Notes under the pieces: model-generated
Database searches by the model: none
What the model saw: only the letters and a program-made list of their open reading frames with translations
What the model was told of the DNA's origin: nothing
Part shown: piece by piece, positions 2,038-20,119 of the stretch
Numbering within the stretch: the stretch's first letter is position 1
Layout of the letters: every line of letters starts with the position of its first letter
Source: a virus
Direction: 5' to 3' (one strand)
Virus record (IMG/VR): IMGVR_UViG_3300034198_007167
Location: 1-24,968 of that record
DNA length: 24,968 bases
Position numbers and translations under genes: made by a program

Positions 2038-2567
2038 ACGGCTTTAGAATTAGTGAATCGTCTAAAAAGGAAATAGGGAAGCCATATCCATTTCGGTATG
2101 CGCGTGATTTTCACGTTGGTGTTTTCGATGTTTGGCATCTCTGCATCCCACAATTTTACGCGTATCGGTTTTCCGTCCGGTGACTCGCAATCAAGCAGCG
2201 ACACGTTACGAGTTGGGGCACGGCCACGAGTCCAATAGTTGTCGTATTGCCCCAGCTCCACGGTGCCCGAAACAACGCAATTTAAGAGGCTGAAACCGTC
2301 GATGCTACCCTTGACCGTCGTGGAGCCTTGGATCGCGCAGGAATCAAAGCAATAGCCACTGCCACGCACGCAATCTACCGAGTCCTCTGTGCTACCGGCT
2401 GGGATGAATAGATCACGCGCGGTCAGGCCGTCCACATGAGAGCACTTGAACAAGTCTGCGTAGTCCTCGGGATTGTCCGGCTCCTGCCATTCCGCCGACG
2501 TAATCACACGCCCGTTGTCCTCGGGGCCAACGAAGCTGTGCCAGTTGTTGTCTGTGGTGCCGCTCAT
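2034..2567 (-). CDS. Predicted beta-solenoid protein downstream of the fibre
   Basis: The ATG at 2567 follows the fibre stop by two bases and gives 177 residues; a slightly longer frame from 2588 overlaps the fibre gene. The sequence opens MSGTTDNNWHSFVGPEDNG. Its middle, residues about 40-130, alternates short strands with D/N/G turns (DGLTARDLFIP, SVDCVRGSGYCFDSCAIQGS, VSGTVELGQYDNYW), the pattern of a small right-handed beta-helix. The C-terminus is aromatic and basic (IPKWIWLPYFLFRRF) and could be an amphipathic or membrane-associated helix. The fibre lies upstream and the holins downstream. Possible roles are fibre assembly, a short tail spike, or a membrane-linked lysis or exclusion factor. 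No family name or active site can be given. Confidence 0.75.
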   Translation of the reverse strand: MSGTTDNNWHSFVGPEDNGRVITSAEWQEPDNPEDYADLFKCSHVDGLTARDLFIPAGSTEDSVDCVRGSGYCFDSCAIQGSTTVKGSIDGFSLLNCVVSGTVELGQYDNYWTRGRAPTRNVSLLDCESPDGKPIRVKLWDAEMPNIENTNVKITRIPKWIWLPYFLFRRFTNSKAV

Positions 2568-2569
2568 GA

Positions 2570-5500
2570 TTAAAAGGCAGTGTCGCAATACCAGTTAAAT
2601 AAAGCACGACAGTTTGCTGATACATCTATTGTTGAGCCAGAACTGTTTGTAATAGCAAATCCAGATGTTGTTGTATGGTCCGCATAACCAGAATTAGCCG
2701 CAAGATCGGTTCCAGCCGCACTATTCGATACACAATTTGTAGTTGATGTATTAGTATATGGATAAACAACAGGAGTTACTACACTTGCTTTTTCTACTTT
2801 GTATTTAATAACACAGTAAGTTACAGTATTTGCAACAGTTCCGTTAGGTACAATACACCCACCAGTATCTCTGCTAGCAGTAAGAATTGCTGTCCCTTGG
2901 GTTTCAGATTTTTCAAAATACCGCTGGCACCGTGCCAACTCCACCTGATACGGCATTTGCTCGTAGGCGGTGGCGGCTGAACCTACCTCCCATTGCACTC
3001 CGGTAAATTGGAATGTGGCACCAGTTGTGGCGCAAAGTTTTACATTGGTTGAAATACGACTAATGTTTCCAGCCTGCCAAGTGTTTGCAGTCCCTTCATA
3101 AGTTGTACCGCTTCCTATATCAATTTGTAAATAGGTTCCTATTGTACCTATTCCATTAAGCCAAGTACCACTCGTATCTCCCGTAAAAGTAACTGTTTTT
3201 TGCTCCCAAGTGTTTGCAGAATTTACGGTAATTTGCGCTGGATAAGAACGATTTGCAGAACTGTTTAAGAATGAAACTGAGTAAGTACCAGTGACACTTG
3301 ATTTAACCCAAAATGAAAACGTTGATGTAATAGCGTTTGCAGTTCCAAAAGCAAAATCTTGAAGTTCTGATCCTTCTACCTTTTGATAAATTACGTTGCC
3401 ATTTCCTGATGCTGGAGAAGCTCCTGTTCCGATAGTTATTTTGTGTGAATAAATAAATCCAGTGGGCGCATCCGAAACTTGTTGAATTACCGTTCCAGCG
3501 CACGATGTATTCAAAACTGTTTTCCATCTATCAAGAGCATATATGTTGCTAAACGTACTAGCAGTAATGCTTGCTCCAACATTTCGCTGGTCAATTCGCA
3601 TTGAACCGTTGCCAATGCGATTACGGAATCCAAACGCTCCCGGCACGCTAGGAGCCGATGTGGTAAACGATGATGTAGAGCTGACCGCTAGCGTCGTAGC
3701 GGCTACCGTGCTCGGGGTAGTGGCGCCCAGCGTGCCGTTAAATGCTCCGTTATTTATGCCGTTAAGCGTCGTCGTGCTAGTTCCAGTCGTACTTCCGATA
3801 GATATATCCGTCGTGCTACCAGCTAACCCACCCGTTCCAATAGCCAGCGTCTTCGTGCTGCCGCTAGCCGTCGCTCCAGCGTCGATATTGATAGTATTGC
3901 TCGCCGTAGATTGACCTAATGTAATGGTGCCCGTCGTTGCCGTGCCGCCAACAGTCAGCGTGCCTGTGGTCAGAGCTGTCCCCAAACTGTGCGTGGAAGT
4001 CGCGGCGCCACCCATCACGCAACTTCCCGTACATGCAAAAGAGGTTAATGATGGATTTCCGTTTAGCACTACCGCTCCCGTTCCGCTATTCGTGGAAAAC
4101 TCCGTGATGTTCGCTTCCCAATCAGTAACTGCCGTCGAACCAGTCGCGATACATTTGCACATGGTAGTGCATCCAACCGGGCCGGTGAATAGGGCTGTTC
4201 CCGCGCTTGTCTGAATAGTAAGCGGTGCAGTAGAATTATTACAGAGTGAAAATTGCCACCCGGTTTCTAGCGTAGAAGTAACTGGAAGAATTACGGTCTG
4301 TCCTGTTGAACCAGTAAAAACCTGATAATTCGCAGACGTATTTGTGAGCGTTACGGCTGTCGCGCTCGTTACGGTCGTGGCGATGGATGTGAGTTTAGCT
4401 AACGCTTGTTGAGCTGATGTGGAATTGGTGCCACCGTTCGCGAATGGCAATGTACCAGTGACGCCGGTGGTGAGCGGGAGACCGGTCGCATTGGTAAGCA
4501 CACCACTTGCAGGAGTGCCAAGTGCCGGAGTGGTAAGCGTCGGGCTACTAAATGAACCGCCAGTAACCGTCTTGCCGGTGAATGTTAGCGCCGTGGGCAA
4601 TGACAAAACAACAGCCCCGGTTGTCGGAGATGACGTGATTTCGTTAGCCGTACCGCTTACCGAGCTAACTGCGCCGCTGCTTGTTGATGCGATGGTGATC
4701 GAACCGTTACCGTTGGTAATTGTAATGTTAGCTCCAGCCGTAAGACTTGCTTTCGTGAGCGTGTTGCCGGTGCTATTGCCGATAAGCAACTGACCATCGG
4801 TGTAGGTTGTGTTGTTTGTGCCACCATTAGCAATTGGCAATGCACCTGTGACGCCTGTGGTAAGAGGCAATCCCGTGGCATTTGAGAGCGTTCCGCTGCT
4901 TGGTGTACCCAATGCACCGCCATTAACTACAAATGCCCCAGATGTGCCTACGTTGGTCGCTAATGCCGTAGCTACGTTAGTACCCAAACCAGAAATACCA
5001 GTATTTACAGGAAGACCAGTAGCATTGGTCAATGTACCACTAGACGGGGTGCCTAAAGCACCACCGTCGTAAAGCAACGTAGCGTTCGCATTAGGTAAAG
5101 TAAACGTTTTCTCAGCCGTAGTTGGACCCGAAAACTTGGAATACCCATTACCCGTTCCACCATAAGTGCTGGCAATAACCTGAGTAAGAGCAGCAGAACC
5201 ATCAAAGTTGTTTCCGTAAATCGCCCGAGGAGTTGCAAGCGTAGCTGCATTCCCAGTGGTATTTTGATTCAATGTAGGAACATCAGCCGCTTGAATCGCA
5301 GCCATCACTACGTTGCTACCATTGCCACGAAGGTAATATCCAGAAGTGGTAGCACCAGCCAAATTGTTTATAGCGCCTTGAGCAGTGGCTGCATTGGTAC
5401 CACCACGGTTAATGGCTACAGCATTTCCGTTCCAAACGCCGCTAGTAAAAGAGCCAGCGTAGTCAAATGTGTTAGTGCTCCACGATACATTGCTTGGAGC

Positions 5501-7213
5501 TTGATTATGTACGTCCCAGCTACCCGCAGCCGTGGAGTTGGACAATAAAATGACTTCGACGTAACCACCCGATTGAATGGTAGCAATGGTGGTAGAAGAA
5601 TTGTTTTTAACGACAATAGTGCCGGACGATTGATTGTTGTTAAAACGATAAAGCGAACCATTGCGAAGCGTCGTGGCGTCTGGAAGTTGATACGTTTGAC
5701 CACTGCTACCAGTGACAACCCAATCGCGCACGGAAGACACCGTAAGAACGGTCGTGCCTCCAGCGGAAGCCACGTTGGTAAAACCATTTGAAATTGTAGT
5801 GGCATAGGCATCAGTAAATGCTGCCGTGTTAGCTACGTTAGACCCAATTGCAGGTGGGCTAGATAAATCAAGTGTACCACCCAAAGTAAGATTACCTGAT
5901 GTGGTGACATTGCCTGACAATGATATGCCGCTAACCGTACCTGTTCCACTTACGCTAGTAACTGTACCGCCACCGCCGCTGCTAACTAAAGCCCAAGATG
6001 TGTTGCTTCCATCCGTGGTGAGGTATTTTCCGTTGCTACCCGTTTGGCTAGGAGCCAAAGCATTGAAAGCTGGATTAGCCGCAGTCTGTCCAGTACCGCC
6101 GTTGGCAATAGGCAGAGTACCTGTAACACCAGTAGTAAGTGGCAAACCTGTTCCATTACTTAACACAATGGATGCTGGTGTACCAAGGATGGGTGCAATA
6201 AACGTAGCTGCGTTATTAAAAACTAAACTTCCCGTTCCGGTTTCATCAGTTACCGCAAATCTCAAATTAGTGGAATTAGGCGTAACCAAGAATGTAGCTA
6301 CATTGGTTCCTAACCCAGATACGCCCGTCGATATGGGCAAAGAAACGCAATTAGTAAGCGTACCGCTCAAAGGCGTGCCCAATGCCACATTGTTCATCGT
6401 ACCACCCGTAACAGAAATGCTACTTGAGTTCTGCGTACTCATCGTACCCAAACCTGTGATGTCAGTGTTAGGTATCGTGGCGGATGCCGTTAAAGCTGCC
6501 GTTCCGTTGCCTTTAACGTAACCTGTCAACGTAGAGGCACCCGTACCACCATCTGTAACCGCAAGGTCTGTAATGCCCGTTATATTACCACCAGTGATGG
6601 CTACCGTGTTTGAGTTTTGCACGCTCATCGTGCCTAGTCCAGTAATGTCACTATTCGGTATCGTACCTACCGCAGTAAATGCCAAAGTGCCATTACCTTT
6701 GACGTACCCAGTCAACGTAGATGCGCCCGTGCCTCCGTCCGCTACGGCCAGATCGGTTATGCCAGTGATATTACCACCCGTAATTGATACCGCGTTGGAG
6801 TTCTGCGTAGCAATGGTACCAAGTCCTAAATTAGTCCGGGCATTAGGTGCGTTAGAAGCACCCGTACCACCATCTGCAATAGCAAGGTCAGTAATGCCCG
6901 TAATGTTACCGCCAGTGATGGCTACATTGCTAGCATTCTGAGTGCTCATCGTACCCAATCCCGTAATGTCTGAGCTAGGCACCGTAGCTGACGCCGTAAA
7001 GGTTGCCGTACCGTTACCTTTTACATACCCAGTAAGACTAACCGCATTAGTTCCACCTTTGCTAACTGGCAATGTACCATTAACAAAACCAACACCATTT
7101 GAAATGGTATTAAGATTCTCCGTGTTGGTTAAGAAATTGGTAGGCGCAACAAGTGAACCATTGCTCGTGATAGCCGTAACGGATTGATTAAGAGGAGTAG
7201 ATGGTATGCTCAT
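2570..7213 (-). CDS. Long repetitive tail fibre with C-terminal lectin-like module (1547 aa)
   Basis: The start is the ATG at 7213 ([10 protein letters not shown]), one base after the upstream stop; a frame open to 7285 would overlap that gene. The first 1190 or so residues are low-complexity Gly/Thr/Ser/Asn/Ala-rich repeats with motifs such as [31 protein letters not shown] and [20 protein letters not shown], with almost no charged residues. This is typical of long phage side-fibre shafts. From about residue 1192 the composition changes: [25 protein letters not shown] and [16 protein letters not shown] mark a globular beta-sandwich module seen at the ends of many phage fibres and thought to bind sugars. 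A further 110 residues, with several cysteines, close the protein. The likely job is host recognition at the tail tip. Two plus-strand frames that look long here are antisense shadows. Confidence 0.9.
4425..6385 (-). repeat. Dispersed LGTP-type repeats in the fibre shaft (middle part)
   Basis: Five coding copies of a roughly 33-residue unit ([20 protein letters not shown] followed by [12 protein letters not shown]) lie in two groups, near 4425-5065 and 6085-6385, separated by non-repeated fibre sequence. Two variant forms occur: one ends in [11 protein letters not shown], the other in [11 protein letters not shown]. Codon choice differs between copies, as in the N-terminal repeat set. Confidence 0.8.
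6400..7060 (-). repeat. Tandem 60-66 residue repeats in the fibre shaft (N-terminal part)
   Basis: About four coding repeats, the last one partial, carry the sequence [11 protein letters not shown], then [13 protein letters not shown], then [18 protein letters not shown]. One copy instead has [17 protein letters not shown] in place of the KGNGT/ITGLGTM segment. The protein motif is nearly invariant but codons differ between copies: ITDLA is encoded as ATTACAGACCTTGC in one and ATAACCGATCTGGC in another. The copies are therefore old, or kept alike by selection on the protein, rather than fresh DNA duplications. Confidence 0.85.
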
Positions 7214-7214
7214 A

Positions 7215-8381
7215 TTAAGAAGGCAGAGAGAAACCGGTTTGGTCAGAAGCAACAGAGATAGCATTAACGTTACCCACTGTGACAATGTAAGTCCAAGAAC
7301 CCGTTGTGGTATCGTAGGTGGCGGGTACGCCCTGTTTGGTCACAGTATCCAATATCCATTGATATGGATTGCTACTAGAATTGTAATCGTAAGGACGAAC
7401 CACAAACGGCACATTCTGTGAAACCGTAGATGACTTACGAATGAAGTTAGCCACAACGTCATTACTAAACTGACATTGAACGGTACAACCCAAAGGATAT
7501 ATGTCCGTGCTGGTAGTAAGTCCACCAAGCAAGGTTGTGCTTACTGCGTTCGATGCCAAACCAATAATTGTAGGACGAGCGAAAAAGTATTGAACAATCG
7601 AACTTGATGGAGGAATTGGAGTAAGACTTTCCAAAGCATAATTTGATGCACGCAGTAACACGGGAGATTGGTAATAAGTCGTAATGTTGCCATTACCATC
7701 AATTGTTTCTACGGTAATTACAGTTTCGCATTCTATAAAATTATTGCGTTTTACACCATTGATTCTAATCAATTCCGAGGAAGAAGCCGAATTAAGGCTA
7801 ATATAACCTTGGTATCCAGCGTAAGGACTACTAATTGCTGTAAACGTGGTAGTTTGCAATGGTACAACTCGTGCAATAGTAGCCATCACAAATTGCCGTG
7901 CCGTAGCTGAACCTTCTTTCAAAACCAAAGATGTGATTGTGCAATCAGGCACCAACAAAGCCCCATTAAATAGGATTGTTGAAACAACGCCAAGAGCACG
8001 GTACGAAATCAAGAATTGCCCGTCACTATGCTTGCTAACATCTACACCACCTTCAGTAATGATCTGAGAATTGGAATTAAGGGCATTTTGCAGTCCCGGT
8101 GCATCAATGTTCCAATTAAGCGTGATCGGGTCTGTATTGCCAACGGTTAGGCTAAAGACGCCGTTTCTCTGGGCAGATGCAACATCACCAATTGTAACCC
8201 GCAACGTATTAACCGTGGGATCAACATTTGTATCAATGATTCCATCAGAAGTAAAAAAGAAACTATTCTGAGTCCTTGACCCAACCATCAATACCGGAAA
8301 CGGCGCGGGCAAAGTATTCAACAAACTTACCGTGCGAGCACGGGAAAGATCATTCGCAGATGTGTTGATGAAATGGTTCAT
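7215..8381 (-). CDS. Tail-tip or baseplate protein of unknown family (388 aa)
   Basis: An ATG at 8381 begins [20 protein letters not shown]. The protein ends one base before the fibre start codon. It is rich in Ser, Thr, Asn and Val, with few charged residues and regular beta-strand-like hydrophobic alternation, and looks like an all-beta virion protein. No signal peptide, transmembrane segment, coiled coil or catalytic motif is evident. Its place just before the long fibre suggests a structural part of the tail tip, perhaps the adaptor that holds the fibre. I do not recognise a family and cannot exclude a second receptor-binding protein. Confidence 0.8.
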
Positions 8382-9094: not shown

Positions 9095-10372
9095 TTAAAT
9101 GGCTTTAACAAATTTACGTTGGCGTTCCCAAATTCCGCCATACCAAAGACTCAATGTAGAATCCTGAGATTCAATAGAATAAGAACTAATGTTACCTGAA
9201 TCAAGTGTGACATAATTTTTGTAAGCAGACAAAGTAGGTGAAGTGGCTATCAATGTGAATCCACCATCGCTAAGGTATTCAGAAACAAATTGCCCGGACG
9301 TAGTAGAACCACCATATCCCCAAGGAGTTTGATAAAGATAACGTGTGCCAAATTTAACAGGAATTTGGTCAACTTGAGTAATTGGATAACTGGTAGTCCC
9401 ATCACCAGCAATGGTAGGAGGTACAGTTGCGTAAGGAACCGTGTTTCCTGCCACTAATTGAGCACGCCACGCATAAATGCTAGTAGATGTACCTGTGTAA
9501 CTAGGATTGCCCGTAGAGCTAAGCAAACGCACTTGTAATTGATTTGGTGACGATACCGCATTGCCGGTAACATTGATACGCCACCAACCTTCGCCAATGC
9601 TAGATATGCCCCACCCATTGCCATAAATGTATTGATCGGATAATGGCTGTCCAATGCTTAGGTCAACCGACACATTGGCAAATGTGCCTTGACCGGAATT
9701 ATAAATACCAACGTCAACCCGATTGTTGTCATTTGCTTTTACAAATACACTACCAGTAATAAGACCAACATTTGTAGCAGCATTTTGTGTTATGTAATGC
9801 TGACTATTAGCCGTTGTTTCCGTAATGCGCGTTGCTGTTTGAGTAGCCCCGGCGCATACTGGAATCGTAGCATAATTTGCAGTTGAAGTAGCTCCTGCTA
9901 AAACCCACGGGGAAACATTCAAATTATCATAACTAGTAAGAAAATTAGAAAACGCTACGGTGTTTCCCACCATATAATAATCTTTAATCTCTTTGGTAGT
10001 AACTATGTGGCTGTAAGGATTGCGGCCTAACAGAGACAATGTACCCTGATAACCGGGGTAATTGTAAATGTCAGATGAATAATCATTCCATGACGTAGGC
10101 AACGTGGTGTAAACCCTCGTCCATTCTACCAATCCACCCAAACGATCTTGGAAATCCACATCATCAGCAAAGTAAACTTGTGGTAAATTGGGATGCGGAG
10201 TGTTTGCGTCGGGACGTGCGTAATATGCCCGCAATTGCATGAACTTAGTGCGATACACAATAATCTGACTATTCTGTGGGTACGGACGGGTTTGCTCAAA
10301 CGAGCGCGTAGGAGTCTCAACCGAAAACGCTGGTTGGTCTGCCGCTGTCTTGAATCCAAAGATGGTAGCCAT
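9095..10372 (-). CDS. Tail-tip protein with inserted carbohydrate-binding-like domain (425 aa)
   Basis: An ATG at 10372 lies one base after the tape-measure stop. Two parts are visible. The flanks (residues about 1-135 and 325-425) are aromatic-rich: EWTRVYTTLPTSWNDYSS and YNYPGYQG early, LSLWYGGIWERQRKFVKAI at the end. The centre (about 140-320) follows the pattern of the beta-sandwich sugar-binding modules of phage tail proteins: TGSVFVKAND near the start, GEGWWRINVTG in the middle and SIYAWRAQLVAGNTVPYAT at the end. The first gene after the tape measure usually encodes a distal-tail or tip protein, but nothing here matches the lambda proteins M, L, K or J. A role in tip structure plus surface binding is inferred. 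Confidence 0.8.
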   Translation of the reverse strand: MATIFGFKTAADQPAFSVETPTRSFEQTRPYPQNSQIIVYRTKFMQLRAYYARPDANTPHPNLPQVYFADDVDFQDRLGGLVEWTRVYTTLPTSWNDYSSDIYNYPGYQGTLSLLGRNPYSHIVTTKEIKDYYMVGNTVAFSNFLTSYDNLNVSPWVLAGATSTANYATIPVCAGATQTATRITETTANSQHYITQNAATNVGLITGSVFVKANDNNRVDVGIYNSGQGTFANVSVDLSIGQPLSDQYIYGNGWGISSIGEGWWRINVTGNAVSSPNQLQVRLLSSTGNPSYTGTSTSIYAWRAQLVAGNTVPYATVPPTIAGDGTTSYPITQVDQIPVKFGTRYLYQTPWGYGGSTTSGQFVSEYLSDGGFTLIATSPTLSAYKNYVTLDSGNISSYSIESQDSTLSLWYGGIWERQRKFVKAI

Positions 10373-10373
10373 G

Positions 10374-11876
10374 TTAGTTTACGGTAGGTGTTAGACTATT
10401 CTTAATTGCCTCAAGCAATTGATTGGAAGTGGTGATTTCAGCAGCAATTGCACTAGAATCAGGCGTAATGCGTTTTTGCATTTCTGAACTGCCAAAGGAC
10501 AAGCGAGTACCTACGTTTAATTCCATTCCTAGCGCCCTTTGCTGTTGATACGATGCTTCACCCGGAGCACCCGTTAAAACCGCGTTAGTGGCCTTCTGAC
10601 GGGCTTGCATGGCCTGTCTAGCCAATCGTTCAGTTTCAGACAAAGGACGTGGGCGACCATTGGCAAAAGTACGGTTTGACCCCGCCGCTTGCTCACTGAG
10701 AGTTTGCGATACATCTATCTGACGTTGCTGCATAGCCATTTCTGCTGCACGCAAAGAATTTTGAGCTTCTGAACGAGCTATTTTAGCAGCCTTAATTTCT
10801 TCAGGGGTACCTGTTGGGCGAGATTTAGCCATTTCCTGACCTTCTGCATTCAAAAGATGCATTCCGGTATTTCCAGTAAGCGTATTAACAACGTCTTTTG
10901 CTTTTTGTAATTTAATTTGAGCCACTTCTACGGCACTAAGACTATTTTCATTCTGAGCATTAGTAAGCAATTCTACTGCTCTTTTTTCGGAATCAAGCAT
11001 TCCAGATGTTCTATCACTCGCACGATTTGCTGCCTCAGCGGAATAAGCGTATTCATCTTGAGATATTTTTAACTTCAATAATTTACTTTGTTTATCTTCG
11101 TATATGGCTTTATAATCGCTATTTAATGCCATTTTACCTTCGAATCCAAATTCGGATTCCATGTCTGAAATTTCTTTTTGAAGTATTGAAATATCTTCTT
11201 TTCCCCTACGAAGCCTAGCGTAAGCAACTTTTACCATTGCTGAATTTCCGCCGGTTGCGATACGCGCTTCTTCTTGATTTGAGATTTGAGCCTCGGATAA
11301 TTGCAACCCTTCTTGTTCGCGTTTTACTTGTCTGCCAAAATAAGCTGGGACCGCTTGCATTGCACCAGCCATGATTGCACCTGCTCCCATGAAAATGAGA
11401 CGCTTAAACATGCCTCCAGCAATCATACCTGCTAACGTTCCGCCTGCGGCACCACCACTTTCTCCACTTGTCCCACCACCACCGCCACCACCACCACCGG
11501 CTCCTCCTCCACCAGATTCAATCCCAAGCTCCTTGGTTTGCTTGATAGAAAGAGATTTAAGCTGATTCTGTTTTTGAAGTATCGCGTACTGAACTTGAAG
11601 ATTTTTAGTGCTTCCTTCTTCCAATGCATTCTTGGTTCTCGATAAAGTCGTAATGTCGTTAGTAACACTTTTAATTTTTTCAGAAGTGTTCATTTCATTA
11701 AACAACGATTGCGACTTCAAATCATTCAGTTTTCTAGCTGCTGAGATATTACCAAACATAGCCGCATCCATCTTCTGACCGGCTTGTTGAGCCATATTAG
11801 TCAACTTCTGAAAACCTGCCGCCGCTTGCGAACTATCAATCGCAACCTTGAATTGAATTTCTTGGGAGAATGACAT
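10374..11876 (-). CDS. Short tape measure protein candidate (500 aa)
   Basis: An ATG at 11876 is preceded by a modest AAAGG-type ribosome binding site. The N-terminal 120 residues are polar and helical (SQEIQFKVAIDSSQAAAGFQ, then Lys/Gln-rich helices). Next come a glycine tract at residues 122-146, a hydrophobic segment at 147-179 (MIAGGMFKRLIFMGAGAIMAG and on), and a long charged coiled-coil region from about 180 to 450. Helical rod, membrane-like segment and position before the tip genes are the hallmarks of a tape measure, which sets tail length and helps DNA enter the cell. At 500 residues, the usual 1.5 angstrom per residue would predict a tail of about 75 nm. Confidence 0.75.
   Translation of the reverse strand: MSFSQEIQFKVAIDSSQAAAGFQKLTNMAQQAGQKMDAAMFGNISAARKLNDLKSQSLFNEMNTSEKIKSVTNDITTLSRTKNALEEGSTKNLQVQYAILQKQNQLKSLSIKQTKELGIESGGGGAGGGGGGGGGTSGESGGAAGGTLAGMIAGGMFKRLIFMGAGAIMAGAMQAVPAYFGRQVKREQEGLQLSEAQISNQEEARIATGGNSAMVKVAYARLRRGKEDISILQKEISDMESEFGFEGKMALNSDYKAIYEDKQSKLLKLKISQDEYAYSAEAANRASDRTSGMLDSEKRAVELLTNAQNENSLSAVEVAQIKLQKAKDVVNTLTGNTGMHLLNAEGQEMAKSRPTGTPEEIKAAKIARSEAQNSLRAAEMAMQQRQIDVSQTLSEQAAGSNRTFANGRPRPLSETERLARQAMQARQKATNAVLTGAPGEASYQQQRALGMELNVGTRLSFGSSEMQKRITPDSSAIAAEITTSNQLLEAIKNSLTPTVN
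11470..11513 (-). repeat. Triplet-rich tract encoding polyglycine
   Basis: The plus strand shows a run of CCA/CCG/CCT triplets (minus strand GGN), encoding a glycine-rich linker inside the tape-measure candidate. Tracts of this kind can change length by replication slippage. A plus-strand polyproline frame across it is an antisense shadow. Confidence 0.8.
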
Positions 11877-13609: not shown

Positions 13610-14400
13610 TTAATTGAAAGATATGGATATGCTTGTTGCAACTTTTTCAAATCATTTTGCATCAGCAAACCAAAAGTGGTTTCTTGATATGCTATTCGTT
13701 GATTAACTACTTCTTCTAATGCGACATCAATTCTTGATTCTTGTATTTTAGAGTAACGATTAACCAACGTTAAGGCAAAATTATCATTAGATTTAGATTT
13801 TAATGAATAACCATTTAAATAAAAATTCCCATTGGATGCCTTGGCATTGCGAATCTTTGCCAAATCTTCATTGCTAAAACTGCTTCCTCCTCCACCAGAC
13901 GATTGCACGTTCATGCCCAAAGAATCGGAAATTTGAAGTATAGATTGACGAGCTAAACCAATAGCATTTTGAGCAGCTTTGATGATACCGGGCAAAATGC
14001 TGGCATATTCATTAGCGTGCTTATCTATGGCATTCCATGTCCTCGTTTTGTAATGCTTATTTTCAGGAGTAAATGAACCTGAATCATTAACATTACCGAC
14101 TATTTGAAACTTACCATTCTCATTTTTGCGCCAAATGCGTCCAATTGTACCACCCTTACGACCAGTATTGGCCGTCATGTTAAATGCCGTCAGGGTCGAT
14201 ATGCGGGCTTGTTTGGTCGCTCGGCTACGACTGCCCAATAACACTTTTGAAGGGCTGGCAATAGGCGTATGTGCCATCCATTGTTTACAAATGATGGATG
14301 CCTCACCCATAGCCCAATTTTCAAACGTATTTCCAGTGCTAGTTGCAATGGCGCTTCCAGCATAAAAAAATTTGTTTAATTCGGCAGAGTCAAAAGGCAT
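13606..14400 (-). CDS. Tail completion or minor tail protein candidate (264 aa)
   Basis: The start chosen is the ATG at 14400, which shares a base with the stop of the preceding gene (TGATG); the frame stays open to 14469 but would overlap that gene. The N-terminal region has a helix WAMGEASIICKQWMAHTPIAS followed by PSKVLLGSRSR. A helix ending in T-P-x-x-S/T-G/P is common in the HK97 gp10/lambda gpZ type of tail-completion proteins. The middle is Lys/Asn-rich with a short serine-glycine linker (QSSGGGGSSFS). The C-terminal third is helical, with a predicted coiled coil (YSKIQESRIDVALEEVVNQR). A joining role is inferred from position. Confidence 0.6.
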   Translation of the reverse strand: MPFDSAELNKFFYAGSAIATSTGNTFENWAMGEASIICKQWMAHTPIASPSKVLLGSRSRATKQARISTLTAFNMTANTGRKGGTIGRIWRKNENGKFQIVGNVNDSGSFTPENKHYKTRTWNAIDKHANEYASILPGIIKAAQNAIGLARQSILQISDSLGMNVQSSGGGGSSFSNEDLAKIRNAKASNGNFYLNGYSLKSKSNDNFALTLVNRYSKIQESRIDVALEEVVNQRIAYQETTFGLLMQNDLKKLQQAYPYLSIK

Positions 14401-14726
14401 CAGAGATCGCTTGGGCGACAAGTAAAAATGTAGTGCGCCAAATCGGTGTTTACAGATTGCACAACCCATTGACCTTGCTGTGGGCCAGCATCTACCTGAA
14501 GGATTTCCCTAACGTAATCCGATGGATCGTTAGAAAATTGAATACGAGGAGAGTAAACTAAGATTTCATTCTCACCTTCGTAACCGGGTTCCCTTAAATG
14601 CATAAAGGATGCCGTGGATTGCACGACACCCATGTAGTTCTCGTTCGTTAAACGGAATGGTATTGGCATCCCGGTGGTGGATACCTCTAAGAACGCTTCA
14701 GATACTTCTTTTTCAAATCCGTCCAT
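14400..14726 (-). CDS. Head-tail connector candidate (108 aa)
   Basis: The start at the ATG at 14726 is preferred because AAGGTG lies five bases upstream, one of few good ribosome binding sites here. A TTG at 14744 would add six residues. The protein is small and beta-rich (GMPIPFRLTNENYMGVVQST, ILVYSPRIQFSNDPSDYVRE, VQSVNTDLAHYIFTCRPSDL), with no cysteine cluster or membrane segment. It stands at the start of the tail-joining genes, where head-closure proteins such as lambda FII are found. The identity is by position only. Confidence 0.6.
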   Translation of the reverse strand: MDGFEKEVSEAFLEVSTTGMPIPFRLTNENYMGVVQSTASFMHLREPGYEGENEILVYSPRIQFSNDPSDYVREILQVDAGPQQGQWVVQSVNTDLAHYIFTCRPSDL

Positions 14727-14756
14727 AGAGGCACCTTGCGACAACTAAAAGGCAGG

Positions 14757-16166
14757 TCAATCCTGCTTTTCAGCGGCTAATTTAGGAATCAAACGACGAT
14801 TTATGAATTTCATCATGCCTTGTCCCGGCTTTTGTTTGTCACCATAGTATCTTTGATGGCAATGCAGGTAATGTGTTTCCGATAACAATGTGTTCAAAAA
14901 GAACACATCCATATCGTCGTGGTAACGCACCATAATGGCATCCAAATTTTCAAGTAAGTTGTGAGCTTGAAACGATGTAATAATGTCACGCTCGTTACCA
15001 CCAGAATCCAATTTCAGGATTTGAGCTTTTGGAAGCTCGGCTACGTCGTTAGGAGTAATTTCTTTCTCATAAGCCACAAGTTTTTGGTCATCATTACTTG
15101 GTACAATTGCTTTTAATGTGTCCTCAAGGTATTTGATAACCTGTGGGTCTCCATCGTAGCAATGCACGGAAGCTCCATTCCATCGCTTTACAGCCCATCT
15201 TGCGAAGGCACCCATACCAGCCCCTATGTCTATGATGGAAAGTGGCTCATTTTTGTCGTAATGGAACAATGGCACGTCAAACGAGCCATTTAGCACATCC
15301 CCGTCATGCAAATCATCAATAGGATAGTCTTTGGGCCACAAACGGATGAATTTCTCACGATGCCCACCCATTAGTCCCGGAATGCGTGGCCCTGAAGCCA
15401 TAAAGGTACGAATATGGTCATGAGGCATACCGTAACGTTGGGCCATCATATCTACCATTTCATCGTCTGTTACCGTGAATTGCAGCGGGTACACAATCTT
15501 ACCAACATGGCGTAGTTGGCAGCTTGTATCTGCATAAATCTCGCCACCATCTTCGATTACTCGCGTACAGAATGCCCAATCTTCCGACAAATAGGTGCCA
15601 TTTACTGCACGCATAGGGAAGAAGTCGTACCGAATGCTGGTCTGGTCAGGATCACCCCGATAAACCATCTCGGGATGCTTTGAAATCATATCCTCAAGGG
15701 CTTTTCGGCTGATAAGCAAAGCACCAGTACCAGCGTGCTTAATTTTAAGCAGACCGTTGCTATCCACTTTTTCACCGGGAATGTAATTAACCACCCAATC
15801 CAATGAAGGCTGCTTTTTGGGGTACAATCCGCACACAATGTCCTTATTCGCATCCAGCAAGCGTTGGAACTGACGAGGTTCAATAATGATGTCTGAATCA
15901 AGGAAGAATAAATGAGTGCAATCCGACTGAAGAAATGAATATGCCAGATTATTACGAGCCCGAGCAATACCATCGTTCATCATGTACCTAATCTGCGTTT
16001 CGCATTTACATGATGCCGCAATAATACGGATGGATTCAGATGTATGAAGTTCCAATTTCCAATCGCTTGTAGCAACGGCAATAAATACCTTTGGAAGTTT
16101 AGGCACCTCAACCAATGCGGTCTCGGATGGAGCGGGAAATTCTAGTGATGGAGGATTGTTTGACAT
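14757..16166 (-). CDS. Bifunctional GT-A glycosyltransferase / class I methyltransferase fusion (469 aa)
   Basis: The start chosen is the ATG at 16166, four bases after the upstream stop; a longer frame to 16241 overlaps that gene. The N-terminal domain has KVFIAVATSD, RARNNLAYSFL, the metal-binding D-x-D in HLFFLDSDII (Asp90, Asp92), a conserved HAGTGALLISRKAL segment and the later SEDWAFC and RHVG motifs; all fit a family 2-like glycosyltransferase fold. After a linker, residues about 310-420 form a methyltransferase-like domain: LSIIDIGAGMGAFARW (SAM-binding loop), VHCYDGDP, then LKLDSGGNERDI, as in FkbM-type sugar O-methyltransferases. It probably transfers a nucleotide-activated sugar and methylates a product. 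It lies in an accessory block inside the head-tail genes, and the target is unknown. Confidence 0.85.
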   Translation of the reverse strand: MSNNPPSLEFPAPSETALVEVPKLPKVFIAVATSDWKLELHTSESIRIIAASCKCETQIRYMMNDGIARARNNLAYSFLQSDCTHLFFLDSDIIIEPRQFQRLLDANKDIVCGLYPKKQPSLDWVVNYIPGEKVDSNGLLKIKHAGTGALLISRKALEDMISKHPEMVYRGDPDQTSIRYDFFPMRAVNGTYLSEDWAFCTRVIEDGGEIYADTSCQLRHVGKIVYPLQFTVTDDEMVDMMAQRYGMPHDHIRTFMASGPRIPGLMGGHREKFIRLWPKDYPIDDLHDGDVLNGSFDVPLFHYDKNEPLSIIDIGAGMGAFARWAVKRWNGASVHCYDGDPQVIKYLEDTLKAIVPSNDDQKLVAYEKEITPNDVAELPKAQILKLDSGGNERDIITSFQAHNLLENLDAIMVRYHDDMDVFFLNTLLSETHYLHCHQRYYGDKQKPGQGMMKFINRRLIPKLAAEKQD

Positions 16167-16170
16167 AAAA

Positions 16171-16902
16171 TTATTTGGAATAGGTTTTGGAATAACGAGC
16201 GATTTCACCGGGAATGACTTCCATGTGCTGAAGTTCTCCATTCATTCGTAAAATACCAAATTCAGCGGTGAGATTGTCTTCAATTGGAAAGCCGCCTTTT
16301 TCTAAGGAAGCTGCTACCAAACTTTCAGGATGAAATGAACATCCAGATTTGAGCAATGCAGGTACGTTTTCGTAAGTTTCAAAATACGACTTAGCTGCAT
16401 TTACACCAAGTATAGCAAAACGGTCGTTTATCCCACCATATGTGCCCCACCAAGGCGTATAAACGTCATCTTCGCAAATACCTGCATTAAATTGGAACTT
16501 ATGGAAATGCAGGTCAGGTCGGCAACGGATTACAGTTTCAAATCCCTTCATTTCATTTGTGATTTCATTAGCAAACTTCCATGCACGGCTTAAATGCCAA
16601 AGCTGGCGCATAATACCCTGCAATGGAGATACACCCGGAGTTTTAGTTGGAGTAATGCTATAAGGTGCATGATCGCTAAATGATTTATCAGGCAACGGCA
16701 TATCAGGTGGAGTAACTTTCTCGATATGTACGTTGTCCCATTCCTTTTTGAGCAATTCGGCTGATTCAGATTGTTCATCATCAGCGCATGACACAAAGAA
16801 ATGAGGATTATCTAATTTACGATACACTGCCCATTTTTGCGATGGGTAGCAGCGTGCAAAAGAACGCATTTGCCCGGATATAATAATAGCGGTTTTATTC
16901 AT
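16171..16902 (-). CDS. WavE-like putative glycosyltransferase (243 aa)
   Basis: The ATG overlaps the stop of the upstream methyltransferase gene (ATGA). The protein opens MNKTAIIISGQMRSFARC, the conserved opening of a group of putative sugar transferases that includes the lipopolysaccharide-synthesis protein WavE. It continues with VIRCRPDLHF (residues 124-133), where the Arg-x-Arg-x-Asp motif is expected, then GGINDRFAILG, and FHPESLVAASLEKGG. There is no membrane segment. Function is not proven for most of the family; the genomic setting, beside a glycosyltransferase-methyltransferase fusion, supports a sugar-transfer role. Confidence 0.7.
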   Translation of the reverse strand: MNKTAIIISGQMRSFARCYPSQKWAVYRKLDNPHFFVSCADDEQSESAELLKKEWDNVHIEKVTPPDMPLPDKSFSDHAPYSITPTKTPGVSPLQGIMRQLWHLSRAWKFANEITNEMKGFETVIRCRPDLHFHKFQFNAGICEDDVYTPWWGTYGGINDRFAILGVNAAKSYFETYENVPALLKSGCSFHPESLVAASLEKGGFPIEDNLTAEFGILRMNGELQHMEVIPGEIARYSKTYSK

Positions 16903-17483
16903 GTTTGGTTGTTATTTGGCTGGAAAATGTTGTCGGAGTGAAATCTTACGAGACCAAGCAATCCATTATTGTTAGACCAATGCTGCATCACTCTCCATTC
17001 AGTGTTGTCAGCCAAAAACTCATAAATGGCACGAGTGATGCCATCTTGACCGTTTTCGCCTTTATCACCAAAGGTCACGGTATCGTGCAAAAATATGTAT
17101 TTGTTGCATTTATATGCAAATTTCAATTCAGCACGCACTTGGTCAGCCGTATGTAATGTGTCGATAAATAACATGTCACAAATCGGAATGTCTTCCAACA
17201 AACTTGTGTCAGCTTTCGTAAACTTCCAAATCGCATTGAGGTCAGACGGTGGCTTGTAAGGTGTATCGTTGATGTCGAACGAGTGTAGAATGCCGTTTCC
17301 TTGCGATTCTAGGCCATGTAACAGCGCAACCGTACTGTTGCCAGTCCTAGTGCCAAATTCTACGATAGAACGGCATTTGCTGGCGTACACAGATAAAGTT
17401 TCAAGATGTTCGTTAATGTCCAAATGGCTACCGCTACGACCTGCCATGCGCTCTTTGTAATCGTTTTCAATATCTTGGTTCAT
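16899..17483 (-). CDS. Class I SAM-dependent methyltransferase (194 aa)
   Basis: The start chosen is the ATG at 17483, seven bases after the small basic gene; a frame open to 17516 would overlap it. Residues 42-51 (EFGTRTGNST) are the glycine-rich SAM-binding motif. They are followed by ILHSFDIND (acidic residue at the end of strand two) and CDMLFIDTLHTADQVRAEL, then KYIFLHDT, the pattern of the Methyltransf_24/cephalosporin-hydroxylase-like group. These enzymes often methylate sugars or small molecules. It is translationally coupled to the WavE-like gene, so the two probably work on the same substrate. Confidence 0.85.
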   Translation of the reverse strand: MNQDIENDYKERMAGRSGSHLDINEHLETLSVYASKCRSIVEFGTRTGNSTVALLHGLESQGNGILHSFDINDTPYKPPSDLNAIWKFTKADTSLLEDIPICDMLFIDTLHTADQVRAELKFAYKCNKYIFLHDTVTFGDKGENGQDGITRAIYEFLADNTEWRVMQHWSNNNGLLGLVRFHSDNIFQPNNNQT

Positions 17484-17490
17484 TGGATTG

Positions 17491-17613
17491 TTACCGCCAT
17501 TTAGGAGGACGACCACCCAACATACCGTTTTTACGGGCTGCTGCTGTCTTGGCCCGTGATTTCACTTTGCCAGCTTTGGCAAAGCGAGATGACACAGTTT
17601 TCTTCTTTTTCAT
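17491..17613 (-). CDS. Small basic peptide with NGxxGGRPPK motif (40 aa)
   Basis: The start at the ATG at 17613 gives 40 residues, MKKKKTVSSRFAKAGKVK and so on to the end GMLGGRPPKWR. A longer frame from 17769 would read through the terminator hairpin and the end of the upstream gene and is rejected. About a third of the residues are Lys or Arg. The ending AARKNGMLGGRPPK resembles short basic proteins found in many bacteria and phages and recalls the AT-hook core G-R-P, suggesting nucleic-acid binding. The gene is first after the strong terminator and precedes the sugar/methyl cassette. The function is unknown. Confidence 0.6.
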   Translation of the reverse strand: MKKKKTVSSRFAKAGKVKSRAKTAAARKNGMLGGRPPKWR

Positions 17614-17674
17614 GCGGGATTCATTACCGATGAATAACCCAACAACGACGTGCAAGCATAAACCCAACAAAACA

Positions 17675-17706
17675 AAAACCCCACCCGAATTACCGGGTGG
17701 GGTTTT
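17675..17706 (-). terminator. Strong intrinsic terminator after the head genes
   Basis: The minus strand has a perfect 13-bp hairpin, AAAACCCCACCCG with a six-base loop and CGGGTGGGGTTTT, followed by TGTTTTGTT. It lies 25 bases past the stop of the decoration candidate. The plus strand also has a short T run, so it might act in both directions. No clear promoter was found between it and the next gene, so downstream genes would rely on read-through or on phage antitermination. Confidence 0.9.
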
Positions 17707-17731: not shown

Positions 17732-18112
17732 TTAGGCTGGGTTGTATTGTTTCTGGCTGAATCCAACAACGCTCACAGGGAACGAAGGCGAGGAAGTACC
17801 ACCGATAATGCGGTCAAGACGCCCATAACGGGCAACTGAACGCGTATCAATGGAAACAACCTGCGACGTAGCAGCCGTAATCTGCGTGAACGCCACGTTC
17901 GCATTGCTCCAATTGGAGTTGTCGGACGATTGACGAAACACGAGATCGAGGGTTGGGTTAGTTCCGGCAGTAGCATTGGCGGCATCTACGCGAAACAGAA
18001 CCTTTCCGATAAAATTGTTCATATCGTATGGAGTACCGTTCGCTGTGGTGGAGATCGCAGCCACAGGAAGGGCAGCAATCGGCGTAATGTAATTTGGGAT
18101 GTCGTAAATCAT
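17732..18112 (-). CDS. Head decoration or stabilisation protein candidate (126 aa)
   Basis: An ATG at 18112 is preceded by AAAGGA, one of the better ribosome binding sites of the window. The protein is beta-rich and soluble, with FIGKVLFRVDAANATAGTNP, TLDLVFRQSSDNSNWSN and a final SFPVSVVGFSQKQYNPA. This alternating pattern is common in small phage virion proteins that lie directly after the major capsid gene and decorate or stabilise the shell. It is followed by a strong terminator, which fits a high-copy product. It could instead be a minor head protein. No decisive motif is present. Confidence 0.65.
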   Translation of the reverse strand: MIYDIPNYITPIAALPVAAISTTANGTPYDMNNFIGKVLFRVDAANATAGTNPTLDLVFRQSSDNSNWSNANVAFTQITAATSQVVSIDTRSVARYGRLDRIIGGTSSPSFPVSVVGFSQKQYNPA

Positions 18113-18151: not shown

Positions 18152-20119
18152 TTACTGAGCAGCCGAGTCCGACGAAATACAGAACGAGGGCCAATGACGA
18201 ACGCCGAAATCGGTGAACAGATTGACGGTAACGACAACTTGGTTGTTCGCCGCTTGGGTATATGGGTCAACAACGACATCATAACCGGCCCAGTCAAAGA
18301 ACATGGCCTGACCCCACGCACCAAAGATCGCTTTGTTGGCGTTGGTACCAGTGGTCGCAATCTGATTCGTGATATTAACCGGATAACCATTGGTCATGTT
18401 GTCATCACCCGACAAGAACACTGGGTAATTTGGAACTTTGACCGTGGTTTTCCATTTGGCGCGAACCGTTGGATTGGTGAGCCACTGCATCGTGCCAAGG
18501 TCAGCATTCGCAGACTGAATCTGCTGCTCAAACTTGACGACGTTTGCCCACGTTGGCGTAGTACCAAACGTGACGCTCGTGACGTTGTTACCACCGCCGG
18601 TAGAATCCGTGGTAGGCCCATTAAGAATGCCGGTTGGCTGCGAGCCACCGGTTCCTTGAATGCCCGCCAAATCTTTGGCGATAGCGATAATGCGAACATG
18701 GTCATCACGCACAAGTGCTTCAGCATCCAGCGACGCTTGAGCCAGCAATTGCTTGCTGTACGAGGTGCGAGCAGCCAAACGGCGGGGAGTGGCCGCAAGC
18801 TGAGCAAACGATTGTTTAGCCTCACTAACCGAATCACCTTCAGCTAGCCAGTAAGCGGTAGCCGCACCAGACTGACGGGGAATGGCGATATTGCCAACCA
18901 GACCGCTCATCGTACCAACGCCAAGCTGCGTCAACAGGGTGCGATTACGGAGCAGTTCGATAAACGAACCACCGAGGAAATCCGTCGCCACAAGAGCGCC
19001 AGCTTGCGTGAAGCTGTTCGTCTGAAGTTGGCGCTGGAGATTCTGACCGTACCGGCTATTAGCAAGGCTAGGCGAAACACGCAGCATCGCCGCCGTCATC
19101 TCAGGATCAGCGTATTCCGACATATCATGCGGCATGATAAATCCGCCAGCATGGGGTTCACGACGATACTGCTTAGCAGCTGCGTCGGACGCTTCTTTTT
19201 CAAGACCATCAAGCGGACGATTCTGAGAAAGCAGGTTGATAGCACGGGTAAGGCTATAACGACGCTTTTCCTTTTGGTTCATACCGATGATAGCGGGTTG
19301 GCTAACAGCGGTTGCTTTGAGGTGATCTTCCACAACGAACTTGCGGAAGCTATCGAGGGTTTCGCCATTAACAATGGCATCCATAACGCGCTCGGAGGGA
19401 ACTTTGAAGTTCTCGCCAATGGCGCGGATATTGGCAACTTCATCCTTGCGGTTGGAGTTAGCGTTAGACGGAGCAGAAGCACGTTCATTCACCGTAACGG
19501 CGGGAACGATAGGAGTAATTTCAGCGGACATAGTATTTTTTGGTTTCTCTAAAGGTTGTGGTTTGGAACGACCCACGCCAACAGATGAATCGGCTGGGAT
19601 GCTGACGAGGCTAATTTCATACGGTTCCCACGAATCAACACGGTAGCTGTCCCCAGCATCGTCGTTTTTTTCCGAGAGTACCATATTCTTCACACGGTAT
19701 CCTACGCTGACCAAGCTACGGATACCGTCTTGCACGTCCTGAAAGATGTCTAGGCCATGCTTGGAGCGATTCTTGGAGAACCGTACAACAGCACGCGCTT
19801 TACCGCCTTTGATTTGGCAGTTTTCCACGACCCCGATTTGGTCTTCCGGGTCATGGTTAAGTAGCAAAGGAGCTTGTTGGCGAAGACGTGAAAGATCGCA
19901 CGCCTTATCGGTACACTCCAAAATTTCATTACCGAAAAAGCGTTCAACGGGAGCTTCGGATGCAAACGATAACTCAACCGTGCGTTTTTCAACATCCATT
20001 GCCCCACGTTCAACGGAGAACTCGCGGGACATGGCTTTTAGGCGACTGTCGCCTAGATCAATTGGTTTTTTGTCCATATAGGGGAATTGCTTAGGTGATA
20101 TTTCCGTATTTTTTAACAT
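18152..20119 (-). CDS. Prohead protease fused to HK97-type major capsid protein (655 aa)
   Basis: One frame encodes two parts. Residues about 30-190 are an HK97-family (U35-type) prohead protease: LLLNHDPEDQIG with the catalytic His89, RSLVSVGYRV with the candidate Ser138, and YEISLVSIPADSSVGVGR with Glu168 following a strand. Residues about 197-330 form a charged, helical scaffold-like delta domain, and the remainder (from about 335) is the capsid fold, including TDFLGGSFIELLRNRTLLTQ, AYWLAEGDSVSEAKQSF and FTDFGVRHWPSFCISSD. In most phages these are separate genes; the fusion gives a fixed one-to-one ratio unless capsid is also made from an internal start. A possible one is the ATG at 19531 (MSAEITPI). 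An in-frame Met at residue 15 is an alternative N-terminus. Confidence 0.92.
   Translation of the reverse strand: MLKNTEISPKQFPYMDKKPIDLGDSRLKAMSREFSVERGAMDVEKRTVELSFASEAPVERFFGNEILECTDKACDLSRLRQQAPLLLNHDPEDQIGVVENCQIKGGKARAVVRFSKNRSKHGLDIFQDVQDGIRSLVSVGYRVKNMVLSEKNDDAGDSYRVDSWEPYEISLVSIPADSSVGVGRSKPQPLEKPKNTMSAEITPIVPAVTVNERASAPSNANSNRKDEVANIRAIGENFKVPSERVMDAIVNGETLDSFRKFVVEDHLKATAVSQPAIIGMNQKEKRRYSLTRAINLLSQNRPLDGLEKEASDAAAKQYRREPHAGGFIMPHDMSEYADPEMTAAMLRVSPSLANSRYGQNLQRQLQTNSFTQAGALVATDFLGGSFIELLRNRTLLTQLGVGTMSGLVGNIAIPRQSGAATAYWLAEGDSVSEAKQSFAQLAATPRRLAARTSYSKQLLAQASLDAEALVRDDHVRIIAIAKDLAGIQGTGGSQPTGILNGPTTDSTGGGNNVTSVTFGTTPTWANVVKFEQQIQSANADLGTMQWLTNPTVRAKWKTTVKVPNYPVFLSGDDNMTNGYPVNITNQIATTGTNANKAIFGAWGQAMFFDWAGYDVVVDPYTQAANNQVVVTVNLFTDFGVRHWPSFCISSDSAAQ

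Follow-up and report, generated by a model that had tools for sequence, protein, structure and literature searches.

The stretch of DNA analysed here (the window) spans 24,968 bases and is the record of an uncultured virus that infects bacteria, with all its main genes on the − strand. The head part runs from a small terminase-like gene through TerL, a head-tail joining protein and the portal to a protease-capsid fusion. After the capsid come a putative decoration protein, a block of enzyme genes, the neck and tail genes, and the gene for a long fibre rich in Ser and Thr. The block, at 14757–17613, is a real feature (Table 1); its reading frames are not there by chance, given amino acid conservation of 43–52% to a distant relative and dN/dS values of 0.05–0.11 against a closer one. 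It was described in an earlier note as a coupled run, co-directional with the structural genes and lodged between the post-capsid terminator and the connector genes. Each of these points was borne out: the ATG of the middle gene and the stop of the methyltransferase share a 4-nt overlap, the fusion begins 4 nt past the middle-gene stop, terminase, portal and capsid share its strand, and the first neck gene follows within ~30 nt. A family search with the product of that neck gene gave no match.

Table 1. Features at the block and its borders, in order of transcription (window positions).
Feature	Position	Strand	Basis
Protease-major capsid protein fusion (phrog_617)	18152..20119	−	Family match
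Putative capsid decoration gene, directly before the terminator	17732..18112	−	phrog_5707; role judged by position
Intrinsic terminator separating the block from the putative decoration gene (stem of 14 bp, T-run)	17675..17706	−	
Conserved noncoding stretch with TTGTTGGGTT present twice; possible promoter or regulatory leader	17624..17672	−	
ORF40, 40-aa very basic ORF (pI 12), kept in relatives	17491..17613	−	
Class I methyltransferase (Methyltransf_24)	16899..17483	−	Pfam
Middle gene, putative GT-A-fold glycosyltransferase, DUF7796/phrog_13607-like	16171..16902	−	
Fusion: phrog_1574 glycosyltransferase (~aa 30–230) + FkbM-like methyltransferase (~aa 305–450)	14757..16166	−	
Probable head-tail completion gene, judged by its position directly after the block; ATG at 14726	14400..14726	−	

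Enzyme assignments were made from profile searches and structure models. The stand-alone methyltransferase passed Pfam Methyltransf_24 (PF13578; 37.8 bits against a gathering cut-off of 26.3), as expected from the earlier note. The glycosyltransferase-methyltransferase fusion also proposed there was recovered. Its N-terminal half matched the phrog_1574 profile (E = 2.8e-21) and carries a DxD motif (D90-x-D92) that is invariant as far as relative L029, down to 51% identity; a PDB profile search placed STIV A197 (PDB 2c0n) at the top with a non-significant E of 0.12. The structure model of the fusion was poor (pLDDT 48 overall, low in the glycosyltransferase half), so only its methyltransferase half was usable. 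The C-terminal half gave class I methyltransferase matches in PDB and reached 28.5 bits with TIGR01444 (FkbM), below the 37.7 cut-off (E = 1.7e-6). It was assigned as a class I methyltransferase that only resembles FkbM. A start at 16166 is more likely than one at 16241, since the more diverged relatives align from 16166 only.

The glycosyltransferase half also matched phrog_842, a beta-glucosyl-HMC-alpha-glucosyltransferase, though weakly (E = 0.036), as would be the case if the enzyme glycosylated modified bases in the phage DNA. Such DNA hypermodification is very improbable: phrog_1574 is by far the better match, none of six related records contained a thymidylate synthase/hydroxymethylase homologue (partial records, positive controls), and there was none among ten early-region proteins scanned in a 39-kb relative.

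The middle gene had been labelled WavE-like, and this label was dropped. No WavE match was returned by Pfam hmmscan at E 0.1, and a direct search with PF07507 was empty, as were its search controls. Pfam gave DUF7796 below cut-off only, and phrog_13607 was also matched. The structure model, of low confidence (pLDDT 63), retrieved nothing but glycosyltransferases among the PDB matches listed (glycogenin, GT6 and ColGalT1; TM ~0.4, best E = 8.9e-4). A homologue in cyanophage S-CAM9 (22% identity) is annotated as glycosyltransferase family 6. These matches suggest that the middle gene probably encodes a GT-A glycosyltransferase. Taken together, the block encodes two methyltransferase domains, one clear glycosyltransferase domain and a second, probable one. 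The sugar and methyl chemistry attributed to these families holds, as does the late-gene placement. The block thus has glycosyltransferase and methyltransferase genes in tandem, as expected of a virion-glycosylating phage cassette. Defence-system models produced weak generic methyltransferase matches and nothing more.

The hairpin of the terminator ahead of the block has a fold z of −3.2 for the surrounding stretch, and equivalent hairpins are present in relatives L002, L006 and L029. The adjoining stretch, 17672–17624, is identical to L006 at 43 of 48 positions, against a late-region mean of 72%; 3.8% of windows were this high. No reading frame stays intact across it in L006, which differs there by a 1-nt indel. 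The stretch is therefore likely to be a DNA or RNA signal, and an in-frame upstream extension of ORF40 across it was ruled out by the same indel. No sigma-70 consensus site was found in the stretch. Together, the terminator and the conserved noncoding stretch suggest that the block is controlled separately, and could delimit a unit under its own regulation, at a junction tolerant of insertions.

ORF40 itself had no match in family-profile searches. In its place L029 has a small ORF (~5510–5706, +) whose product, on visual inspection, looks like a ribbon-helix-helix DNA-binding protein. In both lineages the block opens with a small protein that may bind nucleic acid.

Conservation was assessed in five IMG/VR records long enough to show the site, plus L029. 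Capsid identity to the window was ~93% in four of the five, 87% in L006 and 65% in L029. The same block occupied the same site in all five relatives reaching far enough, and L029 carries the methyltransferase, middle gene and fusion there at 43–52% identity, behind its equivalent terminator. Against L002, dN/dS was 0.05 for the fusion, 0.07 for the middle gene and 0.11 for the methyltransferase, within the range of the structural genes; by this measure the three enzymes are under purifying selection. The GC content of the block follows that of the genome from 43% to 60%, which marks it as an old resident.

Whether the block is variable at this site had been raised as a question. It was instead fixed there in all relatives, and its sole variable part was an internal slot between the methyltransferase and the middle gene. 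Close relatives hold a 109-aa gene in the slot, and L029 an 82-aa ORF and a radical SAM protein (6483–7817, +) resembling B12-dependent types (HpnJ, PhpK P-methyltransferase). In the window, the slot (16899–16960, −) is occupied by the final codons of the methyltransferase, which match the tail of the 109-aa gene (L002 7014–7343). The last ~13 methyltransferase codons appear to derive from that lost gene, as a deletion scar.

No such block was present in the wider relatives of the head module (capsid 31–42%), whether isolates or genome contigs. It was absent by annotation from CRP-811, VP882 and Alexa, and by tblastn from the viral contigs and genome contigs. A search of genome contigs with the fusion as query found no relative. 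The same search with the capsid found only distant relatives (31–40%), mostly in proteobacterial genomes and without the block; a proteobacterial host is a weak guess. The simplest reading of these comparisons is that the block was gained in the ancestor of this group and then retained. Absence from the wider relatives, gene content that varies within the block, and the terminator and conserved noncoding stretch upstream would all be in keeping with a late-expressed, moron-like passenger, which would sit here only by virtue of a junction, behind the capsid terminator, that accepts insertions, and would serve neither virion nor host surface. We consider this improbable, as strong purifying selection has maintained all three enzymes in each relative sampled.

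To place the block more widely, relatives of the phrog_1574 glycosyltransferase were traced in public phage records and viral contigs. In MW202691 the glycosyltransferase is fused to a methyltransferase-like domain and lies between a P22-type coat gene and a tail accessory factor. In MW202573 a methyltransferase gene overlaps the glycosyltransferase gene, between coat and tail adaptor. The glycosyltransferase lay 1.5–2.3 kb past the capsid gene in L052 (phrog_371 head), L053 (phrog_3437 head) and MW202476 (phrog_9953 head), and that of vir323 is probably capsid-adjacent as well. Separately, L052 carries a second methyltransferase-like protein (474 aa; 14284–15708) in its late region.

Two scans, for which the L052 and MW202573 glycosyltransferases served as seeds, yielded 160 loci, those with no detected capsid being too short upstream. 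Every detected capsid gene was on the same strand as its glycosyltransferase and upstream of it. For phrog_371 heads the capsid-to-glycosyltransferase distance was 0.9–2.2 kb in 60 of 62 loci and 5.6–5.7 kb in two; for P22-type heads it was 0.4–1.1 kb in all 70 loci with a detectable capsid gene. A MW202573-like methyltransferase was directly adjacent or ~0.7 kb off in 43 of the 80 loci of the P22-type set. Because both seeds were themselves capsid-adjacent and the 62 and 70 loci are their relatives, these loci count as few lineages, and the independent count for capsid-adjacent glycosyltransferases is about five or six head lineages. Across unrelated head lineages (HK97-type, P22-type), the gene lies mostly 0.3–2.3 kb downstream of the major capsid gene.

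The family also occurs among replication and recombination genes (Cr30, DLP_6, OC, LS06, HTVC027P, MW202825 and MW202753), so the capsid-adjacent placement is suggestive rather than proof. The glycosyltransferase tree had long, weak deep branches, on which one origin and several origins of the capsid-adjacent members are not separable. A literature search, incomplete in coverage, returned no paper describing a capsid-adjacent glycosyltransferase block in aquatic phages. We tentatively propose that phrog_1574 glycosyltransferases beside capsid genes, which frequently have a methyltransferase coupled or fused to them, could form a widespread system for decorating capsids, one that several unrelated head lineages of aquatic phages have acquired at the capsid-to-connector junction; glycosylated, methylated capsids would then be common among uncultured phages.

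The main rival to virion decoration is modification of the host surface, which the earlier note had offered as its alternative. LPS, O-antigen or capsule would be altered late in infection, keeping released virions from re-adsorbing or shutting out rival phages. FkbM-like methyltransferase domains are typical of surface polysaccharide loci, and the block has one. In large phages, relatives of the glycosyltransferase and of the middle gene stand beside sugar genes: that of ACG-2014f is near tail-fibre genes and next to sugar genes, and the S-CAM9 homologue is of this kind too. However, no membrane segments were found in the block proteins, and the block had no match to a GtrA flippase or membrane glycosyltransferase family. 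Lacking membrane segments, the block is not a Gtr-type serotype converter, and a GtrA/GtrB-type membrane partner is missing from it. The enzymes are instead soluble and sit at one fixed site beside the capsid in every relative, and similar enzymes recur next to capsid genes in other head lineages. Host-surface modification is accordingly retained as a rival, though an unlikely one.

The block is best explained, with moderate confidence, as a putative virion-glycan decoration module of soluble enzymes using host nucleotide-sugars. The block enzymes would be made together with the late genes. In the cytoplasm, the phrog_1574 and middle-gene glycosyltransferases would use host nucleotide-sugars to build a short glycan on a virion protein, the candidate acceptors being the capsid, the decoration protein, the tail tube and the fibre rich in Ser and Thr. 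O-methylation by Methyltransf_24 and by the FkbM-like half of the fusion would then cap or diversify this glycan, and the variable slot gene (the 109-aa gene, or radical SAM in L029) may adjust the sugar. The phage could gain in virion stability or adsorption, or be concealed from surface binders.

This explanation is supported by the fixed position between the capsid and decoration genes and the neck genes in all relatives, L029 included. Counting against it, no nucleotide-sugar synthesis gene was recognised among the scanned proteins, and the capsid and decoration protein had no obvious glycan acceptor tail. The earlier note had argued for virion modification from placement within the late operon. 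The comparative survey favours that conclusion, while the argument itself is weakened by the occurrence of the family in replication regions and by the suggested separate control. Capsid-side recurrence of similar enzymes in several unrelated aquatic phages suggests, short of proof, that such phages put sugars on their own particles. Glycosylated virions are established for few phages only (mycobacteriophages in the literature consulted). If capsid-adjacent glycosyltransferase-methyltransferase blocks do decorate virions, self-glycosylation would be far commoner in aquatic phages than recognised, and the phrog_1574 family would be a genome-level marker for it.

By analogy, the closest precedents may be the cluster O mycobacteriophages and PBCV-1 A064R. 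In cluster O, as cited from Freeman et al. 2023 in PMC11600133, an O-methyltransferase precedes three tandem glycosyltransferases, and capsid and tail tube are modified; capsid glycosylation also has precedent in mycobacteriophages Che8 and Rita (PMC11256854). On that cited account, the putative cassette in the window resembles cluster O in that a methyltransferase precedes glycosyltransferases and the phage is of ordinary size, but it belongs to other phages and hosts, includes a glycosyltransferase-methyltransferase fusion and sits at the capsid-to-neck junction. PBCV-1 A064R/A061L build a methylated capsid glycan (PMC9614988). The likeness, drawn from descriptions, is that a soluble viral glycosyltransferase, of GT-A type there and putatively so here, is joined to a class I methyltransferase and accompanied by a second, stand-alone methyltransferase; PBCV-1, however, is a eukaryotic virus, with three domains and a proven target. 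STIV A197 is an essential GT-A enzyme that possibly acts on coat protein (PMC10551542). It is a small, soluble viral GT-A enzyme with a proposed role in major-capsid-protein glycosylation, the fusion's match to it being non-significant as noted above, but it comes from an archaeal virus and has no methyltransferase domain. MW202573 and MW202691 share the glycosyltransferase family, the capsid-to-connector site and a paired or fused methyltransferase, whereas their head module is unrelated and their methyltransferases belong to other families.

Further observations were made outside the block. The putative tape measure gene of L003/L004 (12368–14260) is a mosaic, with 36% identity in its N-terminal part and 75% in its C-terminal part; in L002 identity is 71% overall. 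The early region of the 39-kb relative (L057) encodes a protein with a DnaA C-terminal domain and an FtsK/SpoIIIE-type ATPase (10057–10491 and 2320–3693). At the far end of the window lies a Cys-rich putative tail or fibre gene (516–1502, −). Distant copies of it (28–33%) are found between tail genes in the relatives (L002 15836–16639), indicating that this gene has moved.
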